Source: an uncultured Clostridia bacterium (GTDB lineage: Bacteria > Bacillota > Clostridia > Christensenellales > Aristaeellaceae). From it: a stretch of DNA of 55,653 nt. Positions within the stretch are counted from its first letter, which is position 1. Each line of letters begins with the position of its first letter. Where the stretch lies: NCBI GenBank assembly GCA_947624355.1, contig CANQKI010000005.1, positions 1 to 55,653 on the forward strand, written 5' to 3'. The notes beneath the pieces are model-generated. The model was not told where the DNA came from, did no database searches, and worked only from the letters and a program-made list of their open reading frames with translations. Positions 48,531 through 55,525 of this stretch are shown here, in pieces. The position numbers and the translations under genes are program-made.

Positions 48531-49700
48531 TTATTGCCAATTTTCAAACAAGCGCCAGAATCCCTCCAGCAGCCCGGGCAGACGTACGTCCGACGCCGTG
48601 ACGGCGGGCAGCTCGGCCACGATCTGCCCGTCCAGCAGCACCCGCACGGTGCCGATTTCCGTCCCCGCTTCCAGGGGCGCGGCGACGCTTTCGGGCAGCG
48701 TCGTTTCAAAGCTCAGCTTGTTTTCCTGGCCCGAGCGCAGCAGCATGGAAAGGCCGCCCCCCAGGGCCACATCCACCGTATCCCTGGCCCCCAGGGTGAC
48801 GGGCACCTGCTCCCCCGTCAGGTCGCCCTTATTGGCCACCTGGGTGCGGCTGTAGGTGGCGAAGCCGTAATCCATCATGGCCCGTGCCTCGTCAAAGCGT
48901 GTCTGGGAGTTGGGCACCCCCAGCACCACGGCAATGAGCCGCATGCCGTTTCGCTCTGCCGTGGCGGCCAGGCAATACTTGGCCTCGTTGGTAGAGCCGG
49001 TCTTGAACCCGTCACAGTCCTGATAGAACCGTACCAGGCGGTTGGTATTGGTCAGGTCCGTATGGCGGCCGGAGGGATGCACCAGGGTGTCCAGCCAGGT
49101 GGAGGAGTATTCAAAATAACCCGGGTGCCGGGTCATTTCCCGGGCGATGGCCGCCACGTCCCGGGCGGTGGTATACTGGTTTTCGGCGGGAAGGCCGGTG
49201 CAGTTGAGGTAATGGGTGTTGAGCAGGCTCATTTCCTCCGCCCGCTCATTCATGAGGTCAACGAAGTTTTCTTCCGTTCCCGCCACGTACTCGGCCAGGG
49301 CCACGGCGCTGTCATTGCCGCTGGCGATGATGGTAGATTTGAGCAAGTCCTTCAAAGGATAAACGGCGTGGGCGTCCAGCAGCGCCTGGGAGCCCGTCTG
49401 CCCTGCGGCGTAGGGCGACACCGTCACCTGGTCCTCCAGGGTAATCTGCCCCGCGTCCAGCCGCTCAAAAAGCAAAAGCAGCGTCATCAGCTTGGTCACC
49501 GACGCCACCGGACGCTTTTCGTCCGCGTTCTTTTCAAAGATCACCGCCCCGGTCTCGGCTTCCATGAGCAGGGCGCTGGGGGCCGTCAGCGTCATGGGCG
49601 TTCCTTCCTCCAGGCACTGGGCTTTCGCCCCGGGCGCAAAGGCCGCCGCGCAAAGCGCCGCCAGCAGGCAGCACAGGATTTTTTTCATCCGTCGGGCCAT
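48531..49700 (-). CDS. D-alanyl-D-alanine carboxypeptidase (PBP5/DacF family, S11)
   Basis: A 389-residue low-molecular-weight penicillin-binding protein trimming peptidoglycan stem peptides. Signal peptide about residues 1-27 (KKILCCLLAALCAAAFAPGAKA). Catalytic motifs SVTK (about 67-70), SGN in IIASGNDSA, and KTG in DGFKTGST. The C-terminal beta domain is present but the usual amphipathic anchor helix is short (GLLEGFWRLFENW). The start at 49700 follows AAGGAGG; the longer frame to 50021 covers the opposite-strand leader and is rejected. Confidence 0.95.
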   Translation of the reverse strand: MARRMKKILCCLLAALCAAAFAPGAKAQCLEEGTPMTLTAPSALLMEAETGAVIFEKNADEKRPVASVTKLMTLLLLFERLDAGQITLEDQVTVSPYAAGQTGSQALLDAHAVYPLKDLLKSTIIASGNDSAVALAEYVAGTEENFVDLMNERAEEMSLLNTHYLNCTGLPAENQYTTARDVAAIAREMTRHPGYFEYSSTWLDTLVHPSGRHTDLTNTNRLVRFYQDCDGFKTGSTNEAKYCLAATAERNGMRLIAVVLGVPNSQTRFDEARAMMDYGFATYSRTQVANKGDLTGEQVPVTLGARDTVDVALGGGLSMLLRSGQENKLSFETTLPESVAAPLEAGTEIGTVRVLLDGQIVAELPAVTASDVRLPGLLEGFWRLFENWQ

Positions 49701-49746
49701 GTTTTTTCCTCCTTCCGATTCGGAAATAGCATGACCCAGCCCATGA

Positions 49747-49775
49747 AATTTATGCGCCGGAGCGGCGTTTCGCAA
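49747..49775 (-). promoter_or_regulatory. Possible promoter of the carboxypeptidase gene
   Basis: On the minus strand TTGCGA (49775-49770), 17 nt, TAAATT (49752-49747). The -10 box is only a partial match. Confidence 0.4.
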
Positions 49776-49804
49776 AAAACAGGAAAATTTTTTCGTTTCG
49801 GTGG

Positions 49805-49833
49805 TTGACAATCCCGCGTTTATCGCGTATACT
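49805..49833 (+). promoter_or_regulatory. Sigma-A promoter of the exporter leader
   Basis: TTGACA (49805-49810) and TATACT (49828-49833), 17 nt apart. The transcript leader to the first exporter gene would be about 260 nt. Confidence 0.85.
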
Positions 49834-49886
49834 GACCATAGCGTTCCGGGAACGGAATGTAATTCTGAAAGAAAGGAGGCCGCAAA

Positions 49887-49973
49887 ATGATCAGGAATCG
49901 CGTTTACAACATCTTCTCTGTTGCAGCGGAAGGGGTATCTCTGTCCGTTTGCGGCCGCCTTATGCCGGTATAG
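49887..49973 (+). CDS. Leader peptide of the ABC exporter operon (28 residues)
   Basis: A short ORF behind an excellent ribosome site (AAAGGAGG at 49872-49879, 7-nt spacing). The 28-residue peptide begins MIRNRVYNIF and ends CGRLMPV before TAG. It lies between a strong promoter and an intrinsic terminator. Its codons 22-24 (49950-49957) are complementary to the terminator's 5' arm and loop. No homologue is recognised. By analogy with BmrB of Bacillus, whose translation controls bmrCD, it is likely a regulatory peptide whose translation senses ribosome-targeting drugs. Position supports this; function is inferred. Confidence 0.7.
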   Translation: MIRNRVYNIFSVAAEGVSLSVCGRLMPV

Positions 49974-50036
49974 CGCTTTTTCCGCGCTGGAGCCAGGCAA
50001 TACAAGGGTCATCGGCCGCACGCCGATGGCTTTTTT
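49950..50036 (+). promoter_or_regulatory. Transcription attenuator of the ABC exporter operon
   Basis: Terminator: GTCATCGGC (50008-50016) and GCCGATGGC (50022-50030), 9 bp with one G-U, followed by TTTTTT (50031-50036). Alternative: TGCGGCCG (49950-49957, inside the leader ORF) pairs perfectly with CGGCCGCA (50013-50020) and would destroy the terminator's 5' arm. A further small hairpin, AGCGC/GCGCT (49972-49988), starts at the leader stop codon. A ribosome at the stop codon would mask or crowd the 49950 segment (termination). One stalled earlier would leave it free (read-through). Confidence 0.7.
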
Positions 50037-50100
50037 CTATGTTCTGTTTTACGTTTTATGATTTTTTGATCGGGTTTCGCCGATCGGGGAGGAGATTTCC

Positions 50101-51924
50101 ATGCACACTTCCAAGCGCCGCCTGATGGGCAGGCTGCTCTACGACAACAAATGGTATTTTCTGCTGGCGCTTATCTGCACCGTGGTCACCATCGTCATCG
50201 AGTTCGTGACCCCCATCGTGCTGGCCGAGACGCTGGATTATTATCTGCAGGGCAAGCCCAGCCGGATGCCCGCATTTGTGAACAATTGGATAGATTCCCT
50301 GGGTGGGCCCGCCTACATGGCGCGGAATCTGTGGATTGTGGGCCTGGCGCTGGTGGGGCTCAACGTCCTTAGCGGCGTATTCTCCTTCGGCAAGGGCCGC
50401 GCCCAATCCATCGCGGGCGAGAACGTATCCCTGACCTTGCGGGAAAAATTATATAACCACATTCAGAAGCTGCCCTTTGCCTACCACGTCAAGGCCGAAA
50501 CGGGCGACATGGTGCAAAGGTGTACTTCGGATGTGGAAACGGTGCGCAGATTCTTAAGCATGCAGCTGATGCAGGTCATCAACGCCTTTATGATGATCGC
50601 CTTCGCCCTTTTCTATCTGCTTCGGGAAAACGTCAGAATCACCCTCATCAGCATGATTCTGGTGCCGGCGCTGTTTCTGTTCGCCTGGCTGTTCTTCAAA
50701 TGGGTCATTAAGAATTTCCGCCTGGCCGACGAGGCCGAAGGCAAAATGAGCGCCGTTTTGCAGGAAAACCTGACGGGCGTGCGCGTGGTGCGCGCCTTCG
50801 GCCAGCAGGAATACGAAGTGGAAAAGTTCGGCGCGGCAAACGAGGACCTGCGGAAAAAGAACCAGAAAATCTGCAATCTTCTGGCCGTATACTGGGCCAC
50901 CAGCGACGCCCTGTGCATGACCCAGTCCATGCTGACGCTGCTTACCTGCGTGTTCTTCGCCATCCGCGGGGACATCACGGTGGGCACGCTGACGATCTTT
51001 ACTTCCTACGTCTGGAAGCTCCTCTACCCCATCCGGCAGCTGGGCCGCATTCTGTCCGACGCGGGCAAGAGTTCGGTATCCATGGAGCGCATCGACGAAA
51101 TCCTCAGGGCCCCGGAAGAACCCGCCGAGCCGGACGCCATCCGCCCCTCCCTGAAGGGCGATATCGTGTTCGACCATGTGACCTTCCGTTACGAAGACAA
51201 CCGGGACGTGCTCAAGGATATGAGCTTCACCGTTCCCGCAGGCAAAACGGTGGCCATTCTGGGCTCCACCGGCAGCGGCAAATCCAGCGTGGTACATTTG
51301 ATTCAGCGGCTCTTTGAGCCCCAGGAGGGCAAAATCACCATCGGCGGCACGGACATCAGGAAAATCGACCGGAGCTACCTCCGCTCCCGGGTGGGCCTGG
51401 TGCTGCAGGAACCCTTCCTGTATTCCAAGACGCTGAGGGAAAACGTGGGCATCGCCGTGCGGGATTACACCGAAGAAGCCGTGGATCAGGCCGTGCAGGA
51501 CGCGGCGGCCAAAGCCTTTATCCTGGAAAGCGACAAGGGCTATGAAACCCTGGTGGGCGAGCGGGGCGTCACATTGTCCGGCGGACAGAAGCAGCGCATC
51601 GCCATCGCCCGCACCCTCATGAAGGACAACGACATCCTGATTTTTGACGATTCCCTCTCCGCCGTGGATACCGAGACCGACGCCCAGATCCGCGCCGCCC
51701 TCAAGCGCCGGAGTAAAGATACCACCACCATCATCATCAGCCATCGCATCGTCACCCTGTCCCAGGCCGACCTGATCCTCGTCATGGAGGACGGCCGCGT
51801 CACCGAGCAGGGCACCCACGACGAGCTCATTCATTCCGGCGGCCTGTACAGCAGAATCTTCAATATCCAGACCGCCCTGGAAGCGGAATTCAAAGAGGAG
51901 AATACCGGCTATGCAGCAGTTTGA
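50101..51924 (+). CDS. Heterodimeric ABC exporter subunit, degenerate-site half (BmrC-like)
   Basis: A 607-residue half-transporter: six transmembrane helices (about 1-320) and a nucleotide-binding domain with Walker A GSTGSGKSS, signature LSGGQKQRIAIARTL, and Walker B ILIFDDSLSAVD. The catalytic Glu after Walker B is Asp, as in the degenerate-site partner of heterodimeric multidrug exporters. Ribosome site GGAGGAG. It sits behind an attenuated leader and overlaps the next gene by 14 nt. Probably drug or toxic-compound efflux. Confidence 0.93.
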   Translation: MHTSKRRLMGRLLYDNKWYFLLALICTVVTIVIEFVTPIVLAETLDYYLQGKPSRMPAFVNNWIDSLGGPAYMARNLWIVGLALVGLNVLSGVFSFGKGRAQSIAGENVSLTLREKLYNHIQKLPFAYHVKAETGDMVQRCTSDVETVRRFLSMQLMQVINAFMMIAFALFYLLRENVRITLISMILVPALFLFAWLFFKWVIKNFRLADEAEGKMSAVLQENLTGVRVVRAFGQQEYEVEKFGAANEDLRKKNQKICNLLAVYWATSDALCMTQSMLTLLTCVFFAIRGDITVGTLTIFTSYVWKLLYPIRQLGRILSDAGKSSVSMERIDEILRAPEEPAEPDAIRPSLKGDIVFDHVTFRYEDNRDVLKDMSFTVPAGKTVAILGSTGSGKSSVVHLIQRLFEPQEGKITIGGTDIRKIDRSYLRSRVGLVLQEPFLYSKTLRENVGIAVRDYTEEAVDQAVQDAAAKAFILESDKGYETLVGERGVTLSGGQKQRIAIARTLMKDNDILIFDDSLSAVDTETDAQIRAALKRRSKDTTTIIISHRIVTLSQADLILVMEDGRVTEQGTHDELIHSGGLYSRIFNIQTALEAEFKEENTGYAAV

Positions 51925-53761
51925 GGAACAGGATTACACCAAGCGCTTTTCCCTGTCGCTGTGGAAGAAAATCCTGGGCTATGCCAAAGAATATCACAAG
52001 GATTTATACCGCCTGGCCCTGTGCATGGGCATTTCGGCCGGGTGCGACGTGGTCTTTCCCCTGATGACCAGCTATGCCATCGACCATTTCATCCCCACCC
52101 TGGATCACGCAGGGAGCACGCAGGGCGTGCCCGTCTTCGTGATCGTGTACCTGCTGCTTCTGGCCGTGCAGGTGTATACCATTTTCCGCTTTCTGTATCT
52201 GGGCGGCAAGGTGGAAACCGGGGTGTGCTACACCATCCGCAAGCGGGCCTTCCGCAAATTGCAGGAGCTGCCCTTTTCCTACTATGACCGGATGCCGGTG
52301 GGTTACCTCATGAGCCGTATGACCAGCGACACCCAGCGCCTGGCCGAAACCATCGGCTGGTCTTTGCTGGATCTGGCCTGGGGCTCCGTCATGATCGTGG
52401 CCGCCAGCATCACCATGTTCAGCCTGAACTGGAAACTGACCCTGGCCGTGCTCATTGTGGTGCCGCCCCTGGCGGTGATTTCCTGGTGGTTCCAGCAGCG
52501 CATCCTCCACGCCTACCGCGCCGTGCGCAAGACCAACAGCAAAATCACCGGCGCCTTCAACGAAGGCATCATGGGCGCAAAGACCACCAAGACGCTGGTA
52601 CGCGAGGAAATGAACATGGAGGAATTTACCGCTTTGACCCACGAAATGAAGCGTTCCTCCGTCCGGGCCGCGTCGCTTTCCAGCGTGTATCTGCCCATCG
52701 TGGTGTCCCTGGGTTCCCTGGCCACGGCCTATGCCCTGTGGCAGGGCGGGCAATTGGTCACCGTGGGCGGCATGACCCTGGGCGTACTGCAGGTGTTCGT
52801 CAATTACACGGTGCAGTTTTTCCAGCCTATCCGGGACATTGCCAACACCTTTGCCGAAATGCAATCCGCCCAGGCGGCGGCCGAGCGGGTGATGACCCTG
52901 CTGGAAACGGCCCCGGATATTGTGGATACCCCTGAAGTGGAGGCCGTGTTCGGCGACAATTTCCACCCGAAGAAAGAAAACTGGCCCGCCCTGCGGGGAG
53001 ACGTGGAATTCTGCCATGTGGATTTCCAGTACAAGGAAGGCGAAAAGGTGCTTTCCGATTTCAACCTGAAAATCAACGCGGGCGAAACCATCGCCCTGGT
53101 GGGCCCCACGGGGGCGGGAAAATCCACGGTAGTGAACCTGATTTGCCGGTTCTATGAGCCTACCGCCGGGGAAATCAAAATCGACGGCGTGAATTACAAG
53201 GAACGCAGCCAGCTCTGGCTGCAGAGCAACCTGGGCTATGTGCTCCAGGAGCCGCGCCTCTTTTCGGGCACCATCCGGGACAATATCCGCTATGCGAAGC
53301 TGGACGCCACGGACGAAGAGGTGGAGCACGCCGCCCGCCTGGTGAACGCCGAGCCCTTCATCCTGAAAATGGAAAAAGGATACGATACCGACGTGGGCGA
53401 AGGCGGCAGCCGCCTGTCCACCGGTGAAAAGCAGCTGATTTCCTTTGCCCGGGCTATCCTGGCCGATCCCCGCATTTTCGTGCTGGACGAGGCCACCTCT
53501 TCCGTGGACACCCAGACCGAGCAGATTATTCAGCACGCCATCCAGAAGGTGCTCTCCGGGCGCACGTCCTTCATCATCGCCCATCGGCTTTCCACCATCC
53601 GCACGGCCGACCGGATCCTGGTCATCGACGGGGGAAAAATCATCGAATCGGGCACCCACCAGCAGCTTTTGCGTCAAAAGGGCGCTTACTATAACCTTTA
53701 CACCAACCAGTTCCAGGAGGAACAGGCTATGGAGATTCTGGGCGGGGCCGCGCAGGCGTAA
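51911..53761 (+). CDS. Heterodimeric ABC exporter subunit, catalytic half (BmrD-like)
   Basis: A 616-residue partner: transmembrane domain about 1-340, then an NBD with Walker A GPTGAGKST, Walker B IFVLDEATSSVD with the normal catalytic Glu, and H-loop IIAHRLSTIRTAD. Its signature is LSTGEKQ instead of LSGGQ. This pairs with the Asp-containing Walker B of the other subunit to form the non-hydrolysing site, while this Walker B pairs with the partner's normal LSGGQ. The ribosome site is in the end of the preceding gene (AGAGGAG), implying coupling. Confidence 0.93.
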   Translation: MQQFEEQDYTKRFSLSLWKKILGYAKEYHKDLYRLALCMGISAGCDVVFPLMTSYAIDHFIPTLDHAGSTQGVPVFVIVYLLLLAVQVYTIFRFLYLGGKVETGVCYTIRKRAFRKLQELPFSYYDRMPVGYLMSRMTSDTQRLAETIGWSLLDLAWGSVMIVAASITMFSLNWKLTLAVLIVVPPLAVISWWFQQRILHAYRAVRKTNSKITGAFNEGIMGAKTTKTLVREEMNMEEFTALTHEMKRSSVRAASLSSVYLPIVVSLGSLATAYALWQGGQLVTVGGMTLGVLQVFVNYTVQFFQPIRDIANTFAEMQSAQAAAERVMTLLETAPDIVDTPEVEAVFGDNFHPKKENWPALRGDVEFCHVDFQYKEGEKVLSDFNLKINAGETIALVGPTGAGKSTVVNLICRFYEPTAGEIKIDGVNYKERSQLWLQSNLGYVLQEPRLFSGTIRDNIRYAKLDATDEEVEHAARLVNAEPFILKMEKGYDTDVGEGGSRLSTGEKQLISFARAILADPRIFVLDEATSSVDTQTEQIIQHAIQKVLSGRTSFIIAHRLSTIRTADRILVIDGGKIIESGTHQQLLRQKGAYYNLYTNQFQEEQAMEILGGAAQA

Positions 53762-54055
53762 CGGCGCGCGGGTCTGCCGCGTTTTCTGCCGCCCGTGCGG
53801 CGGTGCACAATCAAATACGGAAAAGCTCTGCCGCGTTTCAGGCGTTCGGGTGAAGAAAGAGACGGCGCTTTTTCGGAACACCCAAAAAGGATAAGAAAGA
53901 AGCTGAGAACAACGCCTGTTCCCGGCGGGTAATTGAAAAATGCGGCTTCACGTTTGTGAAAACGGGCGTGTATCATTCAAAACAAATGGACCGGGATTTT
54001 TCGGACAGGGAATACATCCTGTTCAATCCCAAAATAAAAAAATGAGGTGAAAACC
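53762..54055. other. Decayed gap after the ABC exporter
   Basis: No intact gene. The first 140 nt hold a direct repeat CTGCCGCGTTT (about 53774 and 53828) and a small GCCGC/GCGGC hairpin without a T-run. The last 140 nt are the GNAT remnant listed separately. No clear terminator for the exporter operon is seen, so read-through into the serine-hydrolase-GNAT gene is possible. Confidence 0.6.
53905..54045 (+). pseudogene. C-terminal remnant of a RimJ/RimL-type GNAT acetyltransferase
   Basis: An uninterrupted frame of 46 codons reads ENNACSRRVIEKCGFTFV, then KTGVYHSKQMDRDFSDREY and ILFNPKIKK before TGA. ENxxSRRVxEKxGF is the acetyl-CoA-site end of GNAT enzymes and the rest matches a RimL-type C-terminus. 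Nothing upstream supplies the first two thirds of the domain or a start codon. The stop overlaps the ribosome site of the next gene, suggesting a former coupled pair. Confidence 0.75.
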
Positions 54056-55525
54056 ATGAAAGACGCGGATAAATTCATTGCGAAAATTGAAGAAAAAGCC
54101 AAGGAATGGGATATTTCGGCTGTGGTGGCCCTGGAGGACAGGGAAGGATTCCGGTATGAAAATGCATTCGGTTACGCGAATCGGGCAGCAAAACACCCTC
54201 TGACGCAAAACGACCGCTTCTGCCTGGACGCGGAAAGCTGCATTTTCCTGGTGCTGTGCGTGATGCGGCTGATGGAGGAAGGGAAACTGCGCCTCAGCGA
54301 CAAGGTGAGCCGCTTTATTCCCGAATACCGCCTGGGCGATAGGATCACGGTGCGGAACATTCTGAAATGGGACACGGGGCTGCCGGATTACTGGTGCTCC
54401 GTGCGCATGACCAGACTGCAGAAGGACCCTGCCCATACCGCCCTGACCGATCAGGAACGGTTCACGCGGGAATATGAACTTCACGCCGCCGACGTTCCCT
54501 TTGCTGAGGTACTGAAGGACATTAACGACCTGGACCTGACCCACGAGCCGGGTAAGGAGGACGACGGCAGCGAAACGGGCGTCAAATTCCTTTCCGAAAT
54601 CATCCGCCGGGCGTCCGGCATGACGGCGCCGGAATACCTGTTTCAGTATTTCTTCACGCCGCTTGATATGGCGGATACCCGCCCCGGCAACGACGCAACA
54701 GCGGCGCTCAGCGGCGTTTTGCGGGACGAAGAGTTAATTTCCCTGCCCGCCCTTTCCCCCGAAACGGCCTTCACCACCACCCTGGCGGACATGCACAAGC
54801 TGGCCCGCGCCCTGGCGGAAAAGCAGTTCTTTTCCGAAAAGACCTGGGTGCTCATGCTCAAGTGCAACTGGCGTGAAAATACCTTTGGCTTTTCCAAGCA
54901 GGGCAGCCTGTTCATGGCCGACACGTATCCCACCAAGCTCCGGAACAACTGGCGGCTGTACCTGGATTTTGACAGCGGCCTCAGCATGCTGACGCTCAAC
55001 AACGAAGAAATGCGCATGAAGCTGGATCAAAACAGCCGCTGGCGTTCCTTTGACGGCGATTTCAGGCGGGCCTGGCTGGATACGAAAGTGTATCCCGACA
55101 AGCCCGAAATGCAGAAAGTAAGCGATAAGAACGTTTGGGACGCCATGAGCATCGAGCTGCTGCCCAAGCAGCTTGACTTTGTGCCCGAGTGCACCCGCTG
55201 CATGGCCGCGATGCTGGCGCAAAGGCAGCCCGTGTATGTGCTGATGGATCACGGGGTGGCCGTGGGCATGGCGGGGCTCACCGTCAAGCCGAAGAAAAAC
55301 AAGTTCGCCGTTTCCTACCTGCAGGTGGATTACCGCTACCAGCACCGGGGCTACGGCCGTATCCTGCTGACAAAGGCCATCGATATTCTGAAGAAAAAGG
55401 GCGCGAAAAAGCTGGAAATCGGCGTAAACCGCTTCAATCTCCCCGCCCAGCGCCTGTACCGCAGCGTGGGTTTTCAGGATAAGGAAATTTACGACGAATT
55501 TATCGAACTGGAAATGACCCTATAA
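54056..55525 (+). CDS. Degenerate serine hydrolase (beta-lactamase fold) fused to a GNAT acetyltransferase
   Basis: A 489-residue two-domain protein. Residues about 5-340 resemble class C beta-lactamase/PBP4-like proteins (RLMEEGKLRLSDKVSRFIPEY, ILKWDTGLPDYW, YFFTPLDMADTR, ALSPETAFTTTLADM). The catalytic SxxK is replaced by SCIF (61-64), so this domain is probably not a hydrolase. Residues about 375-489 form a GNAT domain with the acetyl-CoA loop QHRGYGRILLTKAI and RFNLPAQRLYRSVGF. No signal peptide. ATG at 54056 lies 6 nt after GAGGTG; the GTG at 54047 overlaps it. Substrate unknown. Confidence 0.85.
   Translation: MKDADKFIAKIEEKAKEWDISAVVALEDREGFRYENAFGYANRAAKHPLTQNDRFCLDAESCIFLVLCVMRLMEEGKLRLSDKVSRFIPEYRLGDRITVRNILKWDTGLPDYWCSVRMTRLQKDPAHTALTDQERFTREYELHAADVPFAEVLKDINDLDLTHEPGKEDDGSETGVKFLSEIIRRASGMTAPEYLFQYFFTPLDMADTRPGNDATAALSGVLRDEELISLPALSPETAFTTTLADMHKLARALAEKQFFSEKTWVLMLKCNWRENTFGFSKQGSLFMADTYPTKLRNNWRLYLDFDSGLSMLTLNNEEMRMKLDQNSRWRSFDGDFRRAWLDTKVYPDKPEMQKVSDKNVWDAMSIELLPKQLDFVPECTRCMAAMLAQRQPVYVLMDHGVAVGMAGLTVKPKKNKFAVSYLQVDYRYQHRGYGRILLTKAIDILKKKGAKKLEIGVNRFNLPAQRLYRSVGFQDKEIYDEFIELEMTL

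Follow-up and report, generated by a model that had tools for sequence, protein, structure and literature searches.

A conserved leader RNA, probably a ribosome-mediated attenuator, ahead of a heterodimeric ABC exporter in an uncultured Clostridia bacterium

The window analysed here, a stretch of 55,653 nucleotides from an uncultured Clostridia bacterium, is one of the contigs of a 2.8 Mb assembly. It carries the two overlapping ORFs of an ABC exporter and, ahead of them, a leader with its own promoter, Shine–Dalgarno sequence (SD), short ORF and intrinsic terminator (Table 1). The promoter has 11 of the 12 consensus bases and is the sole sigma-70-like site that the motif scan detected between 49500 and 50400, where shuffled sequences hold 0.4 sites; comparable promoters stand upstream of the relatives' leaders. 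The leader SD is invariant or nearly so in two alignments (A1 and A2). The terminator stem (50008–50016/50022–50030) contains one U–G among its nine pairs; the region has five terminator-like matches against 1.6 in shuffles, and the leader RNA folds better than its shuffled versions (z = −3.66). The leader stop codon ends at 49973 and the terminator starts at 50008, and the same order, stop before terminator, is found in 82 of 84 family leaders. The prerequisites of an attenuator, that is, a promoter, a translatable leader ORF and an intrinsic terminator ahead of a structural gene, are thus present. A previous, sequence-only reading of this DNA had listed the promoter, the strong SD, the 28-codon ORF, the terminator and an 8-nt complementarity between ORF and terminator, and the sequence and the motif scan confirm all of them in their places.

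Table 1. Features of the leader and the exporter genes in the window
Feature	Position	Strand	Basis or partner
Sigma-70-like promoter, TTGACA-17-TATACT	49805..49833	+	Motif scan
Shine–Dalgarno sequence AGGAGG of leader ORF	49874..49879	+	Sequence
Segment 1, SD plus spacer, AGGAGGCCGCAAA; proposed anti-antiterminator strand	49874..49886	+	Partner 49948–49960
Leader ORF, 28 codons, MIRNRVYNIFSVAAEGVSLSVCGRLMPV-stop	49887..49973	+	Short ORF also in relatives
Segment 2, TTTGCGGCCGCCT, end of leader ORF	49948..49960	+	Partner segment 1, or segment 3 via 49950–49957
Segment 3, CGGCCGCA, terminator 5′ arm and loop; proposed antiterminator partner of 49950–49957	50013..50020	+	
Terminator hairpin (3:4), 9 pairs, loop 50017–50021	50008..50030	+	
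Terminator T run, six T	50031..50036	+	
ABC exporter half A, resembles YheI (BmrC); Walker B DD (degenerate)	50101..51924	+	Sequence, structure matches
ABC exporter half B, resembles YheH (BmrD); Walker B DE, degenerate signature LSTGEK	51911..53761	+	Sequence, structure matches

In heterodimeric ABC exporters, an aspartate in place of the catalytic Walker B glutamate, together with a degenerate signature motif, marks one degenerate ATP site. By these motifs the exporter is of the heterodimeric type with one such site, and the BmrC/BmrD-like pair recognised in the sequence-only reading is upheld. Among the matches listed to solved structures, the top scores overall for both halves belong to eukaryotic ABCB proteins; the bacterial chains among the matches listed are TM_0288 and YheI for half A and TM_0288 and YheH for half B. 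The chains of 5mkk and 6raf, which we take to be TmrAB, match both halves among the matches listed. The NCBIfam matches shown for the two halves (the best 25 of 186 and of 187) are under the curated cut-offs. Divergent from the attenuator, the minus strand at 48531–49688 encodes a D-alanyl-D-alanine carboxypeptidase (Peptidase_S11 with a PBP5 C-terminal domain). Downstream of the exporter, at 54047–55525 of the plus strand, a beta-lactamase-type serine hydrolase domain is fused to a GNAT acetyltransferase domain.

The leader was surveyed in relatives by two routes. A search of 60 relatives with the leader DNA gave matches in 12 genomes, the own genome counted, and 10 of the 11 other matches are leaders of the same exporter gene; the match at L009 was rejected as a terminator-like chance match that is not a leader. 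A family protein search of 200 genomes located the first exporter half in 112. Upstream regions were taken from 90 of these 112 matches (30 + 60 loci; the other 22 are outside the sample), from 20 named loci and from 10 loci of the DNA search. Eleven of the 120 loci were dropped because the gene start could not be aligned, and then 17 of 109 as identical or too short. The 92 non-identical family upstream regions left include 89 with a short ORF and 85 with both ORF and terminator, counted under a permissive ORF rule and with no null; three regions were dropped for want of an ORF call and four more for want of a terminator or by a stricter ORF rule. One locus with a wrong automatic ORF choice (L131) is inside the 85 and outside the 84 leaders used below, one with a misplaced terminator (L160) is outside the 83 loci of the folding tests, and the peptide-motif count covers 83 leaders, one having been removed by a promoter filter. 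Since the family loci are related, none of these counts is made up of independent observations.

Conservation in close relatives was the first of the points on which the sequence-only reading had staked its proposal, and the leader is present at 23 of 23 non-identical orthologs whose first exporter half is at least 75% identical. The protein search supplied 21 of them, which were therefore not selected for having the leader, and the leader DNA itself supplied two (L004 and L012). Near relatives L051–L070 are Clostridia MAGs, several of ruminant-gut origin according to their titles and two labelled Christensenellaceae. An element already known to Rfam was rejected: the covariance models gave no match at E up to 1 in 49700–50200 of the window and nothing at gathering score in six loci. 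The open-access literature gave no description of this leader element (most subscription papers were outside the search), in keeping with the earlier suspicion of an undescribed variant. By these comparisons of sequence, the regulatory RNA is real and conserved.

Its best-supported element, as judged by sequence comparison, is the pairing of segment 1 with segment 2, that is, of the leader SD with the leader end, which the sequence-only reading missed. The two segments are complementary at 12 of 13 positions. Among family leaders, picked by promoter and SD and not by pairing, the 1:2 pairing is significant (p < 0.05 against shuffled leader bodies) in 65 of 84; all but one of the 23 near orthologs are among the significant cases (22 of 23). 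The same level is attained by 7 of 104 ordinary genes that have an SD. For this background the partner stretch was set at 100 nt, with 100 shuffles, as against a stretch of variable length and 300 shuffles for the leaders, and about four of its rows failed and are scored as not significant. In 20 of 85 rows the pairing is not significant, one of these (L131) resulting from the wrong ORF choice. When the cognate segment 1 is ranked against partners from dissimilar loci, it falls in the top 5% at 47 of 84 loci and in the top 10% at 60 of 84; without the SD itself, it is in the top 5% at 27 of 84.

The 1:2 helix also tracks sequence change. By eye, its strands vary together as GGCCGC/GCGGCC, GGCTGCG/CGCAGCC, GGGTCGCAAA/TTTGCGACCC and GGCACAC/GTGTGCC. 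In a genus-plus-neighbour alignment of 30 sequences, the helix is formed in 93.7% of cells and, when slid, in at most 54.3%. Cells changed on both sides number 13, against 4.5 in shuffles; they are confined to two pairs (shuffles mean 1.6, so that the number of pairs is no higher) and to one neighbouring group of seven sequences, and may thus reflect one or two events.

The terminator helix 3:4 is paired in 96.1% of cells of the same alignment, with double changes in 8 of 11 pairs; by this measure the terminator hairpin is covarying. The third helix, 2:3, is the antiterminator named in the sequence-only reading: 49950–49957 (TGCGGCCG) is the exact reverse complement of 50013–50020 (CGGCCGCA). 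The segment core, GCGGCCGC, is palindromic, and the palindromy holds in the window's genus, which makes this complementarity cheaper; the better evidence for 2:3 is that of lineages with non-palindromic segments. In the window itself the duplex energy of this pairing does not differ significantly from that obtained with shuffled terminator arms (p = 0.176). Family-wide, p < 0.05 is reached at 33 of 85 loci, the window not among them, and both pairings, 1:2 and 2:3, are significant at 28 of 85. In the 30-sequence alignment, 2:3 has zero double changes and is formed in 83.3% of cells, equal to column shuffles (83.2%); when slid, it is formed in at most 55.8%. An extra 2:3 helix, CCTT/AAGG, proved weak (72.5% of cells against 70.2% in shuffles) and does not add to the case for 2:3. 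The antiterminator pairing, as seen by alignment, is position-conserved and plausible, yet the weakest of the three helices. The earlier proposal to align homologous operons has been borne out for the short ORF, which relatives also have, and for the terminator, which covaries; the alternative pairing it named lacks compensatory change in the 30-sequence alignment.

Strong support for 1:2 and 3:4 and moderate support for 2:3 would also be expected if 1:2 merely limited leader translation and the terminator were a constitutive brake or a source of small RNA, with no drug-responsive antiterminator. We consider this arrangement unlikely: 2:3 is above chance across the family, both in the count given above and in the ranking of cognate partners (top 10% at 30 of 84 loci), and segment 2 lies just ahead of the leader stop, its midpoint at a median of −21 nt.

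The consequences of a ribosome on the leader were modelled by folding the RNA just extended to the terminator loop, with the ribosome represented by a masked stretch. In the window, the predicted probability of 2:3 is 0.001 with no ribosome. With the P site at codons 1–4 it is 0.64–0.65, the higher value being that of codon 1 and the lower that of codon 4; it drops to 0.18 at codon 5 and does not exceed this up to codon 16. A bump of 0.27–0.31 follows at codons 17–18, with 0.31 at codon 18, and the value is about 0 from codon 21. Averaged over 83 family loci, the probability is 0.24 for the unoccupied RNA and 0.57 for a P site at codons 1–3; it then declines to 0.53 (codon 4), 0.39 (codon 5) and 0.23 (codon 7), and the last eight codons give at most 0.04. 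The gain from masking the start is 0.255 for native leaders and 0.169 for shuffled leader bodies, native being higher at 53 of 83 loci; the effect persists in part with shuffled bodies and is thus not wholly specific. Masking the start does not keep the window terminator from winning in the finished RNA at equilibrium (probability 0.89), so any antitermination would have to be a kinetic effect. According to the model, antitermination is favoured mainly by a ribosome on codons 1–4. The sequence-only reading had supposed that a stalled ribosome frees the segment and breaks the terminator, and gave no stall site; the folding places the stall mainly at the start of the ORF and not near the segment.

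Taken together, we assign a probability of about 65% to the reading that the leader is a ribosome-mediated transcription attenuator which reads the occupancy of its own start region and switches on the exporter. With no ribosome on the leader, or after a ribosome has run through, 1:2 would form, segment 2 would be engaged, 3:4 would form and transcription would stop. A ribosome near the stop codon would cover segment 2, with the same outcome. If a ribosome is instead held at the start codon or within the few codons that follow, it would cover segment 1; segment 2 could then pair with segment 3 before segment 4 is made, leading to read-through and expression of the exporter. The signal would be inhibitors halting the ribosome at initiation or immediately after it. 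Since 1:2 also hides the leader SD, translation of the leader is probably limited to the short time of its own transcription. Attenuation by the ribosome, as originally suggested, is by comparison the best-supported class.

An alternative is peptide-specific stalling of the Erm type, in which the nascent leader end (CGRL or LRPP) or an early Arg-Asn-Arg arrests a drug-bound ribosome. Codons 3–5 of the window leader read R-N-R, and a ribosome stalled on them would have its P site at about codon 4, which falls within the predicted range; [RK]x[RK] occurs within residues 2–10 in 17 of 83 leaders against 10.3 expected, a count reached by 44 of 2000 shuffles. The leader peptide itself is not conserved. 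GCGGCC is carried by 31 leaders in three reading frames (16, 12 and 3), and among close relatives the same nucleotides encode either CGRL or one of LRPP and LRPD; a conserved leader peptide was rejected on this ground, and the differing frames point to RNA pairing rather than to a stalling peptide. Moreover, the RLR/RYR stalling motif (R[LY]R) is found in 4 of 83 leaders and is absent from that of the window, and a stall at the end of the peptide would cover segment 2 and favour termination. Peptide-specific stalling is therefore distinctly improbable. Across the family leaders, 13.0% of the residues at positions 2–10 are asparagine, against 2.5% of those further along.

In VmlR of Bacillus subtilis, initiation arrest on a three-codon uORF blocks the anti-antiterminator (PMC9226507), the antiterminator forms and transcription reads through into the resistance gene, as is predicted for the leader described here. 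The predicted 1:2 helix overlaps the uORF start, a VmlR-type trait, and has the SD inside it. In the account of VmlR, the uORF lies in a bulge of the anti-antiterminator, the SD is single-stranded and the gene is of the ABC-F type (PMC9226507), whereas here the SD is a strand of the helix and faces the end of a 28-codon uORF as its second strand, and the gene encodes an ABC exporter. The bmrB-bmrCD operon of B. subtilis is induced by ribosome-targeting drugs, requires leader translation and shares with the present locus the exporter type, a leader ORF and a terminator and, on the reading proposed here, an antiterminator and a predicted anti-antiterminator (PMC4191407). The likeness to bmrB-bmrCD drawn in the sequence-only reading holds in this outline and fails in structure: there, as described, the terminator is inside a 53-codon ORF, with three predicted structures in its nucleotides 60–162 (PMC4191407), and here the terminator comes only after the leader stop, with the start region involved as well, bmrB being compared by description and not by sequence.

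At the toiL uORF of E. coli topAI, ribosomes arrested on the start codon by tetracycline or retapamulin bring about expression of the gene that follows (PMC12121999). Unlike the present leader, toiL frees a downstream ribosome site, with Rho-dependent termination, and is not an attenuator with an intrinsic terminator (PMC12121999). The hflXr/rli80 leader of Listeria, induced by lincomycin and erythromycin, has a small ORF, alternative structures and a premature terminator, the parts also proposed here (PMC6310831); its ORF is described as having 14 codons and an RLR motif (PMC6310831), and that motif is missing from the window leader. The patAB genes of Streptococcus pneumoniae, likened by description, encode a heterodimeric ABC exporter with a transcriptional attenuator upstream (PMC4319486). 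The kind of switch is known; this variant appears from its sequence to be new, being structurally unlike both VmlR and BmrB.

An order-wide search with a model of the leader found 22 places in 21 of 297 genomes, a lower bound since the model was tuned to the genus. Twelve places precede an exporter gene (the window, one in genome G001 and ten more), one precedes a DAHP-synthase-like gene, and the remainder are L200 and eight matches judged by eye to be chance or partial. In its own genome, the model gives one strong match, the leader itself, the next best having E 0.008 over 92 nt. Outside the family, seven matches precede homologues of the first exporter half with 42–46% identity (G490, G454, G254, G376, G473, G482 and G281); the 1:2 pairing has p < 0.05 by mononucleotide shuffles in only three of them (L193, L199 and L211). 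Outside the order, nothing beyond chance was found. The 60 named loci more distant than the near orthologs (L071–L130) gave three candidates at p < 0.05 by mononucleotide shuffles (L078, L089 and L121), about the chance rate.

At L205 (1501–1672; G258:C88, from another family of the order), a Phe/Tyr-rich leader, MLNNKFYFYFFFNKGCPSSMITKV, has its SD paired to the leader end and is followed by a terminator and by a gene which we take to be DAHP-synthase-like. Its sequence resembles that of an attenuator for aromatic amino acids built to the same plan, and this suggests that the design also serves amino-acid attenuation. The stall codons lie past the start region, so a queued second ribosome on the SD may matter. 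L205 lends some weight to the possibility that the exporter leader, too, senses a general slowing of translation (through starvation for amino acids or through poor initiation) and not antibiotics, the exporter being one output. We regard this as very improbable, since the exporter leaders, by eye, have no such codon run and the controlled gene is of the drug-exporter type. In the genus, the DAHP synthase family occurs in 5 of 29 genomes; by eye, the five stretches hold no Phe/Tyr leader, though the upstream region may have been missed in L213, L214 and L217, where the open frame is longer than the enzyme.

Start-region attenuation, the reading preferred for the window, may extend to an order-wide class in which the leader's own ribosome-binding site is the anti-antiterminator strand and the occupancy of the start codon is read rather than a peptide or a codon. 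Such a class would govern the heterodimeric drug exporter of many species; in at least one species, a version with Phe/Tyr codons would govern a gene of aromatic synthesis. We put this forward tentatively, at slightly less than even odds. If true, the class would serve gut bacteria as a general sensor of translation inhibitors that arrest ribosomes at the start. The attenuator proposed for the window would itself show an exporter tied to translation arrest in uncultured gut bacteria without a conserved stalling peptide and would give an RNA signature for searching genomes and RNA data. It predicts that drugs arresting ribosomes at the start codon induce the exporter, and that drugs acting at later codons induce it less strongly or have no such effect.

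Among the places found by the model, L200 (1501–1661; G464:C47) is a candidate with a 34-codon leader, the middle of which is complementary to the leader's SD; it lies 332 nt upstream of an unrelated ORF of 389 codons.
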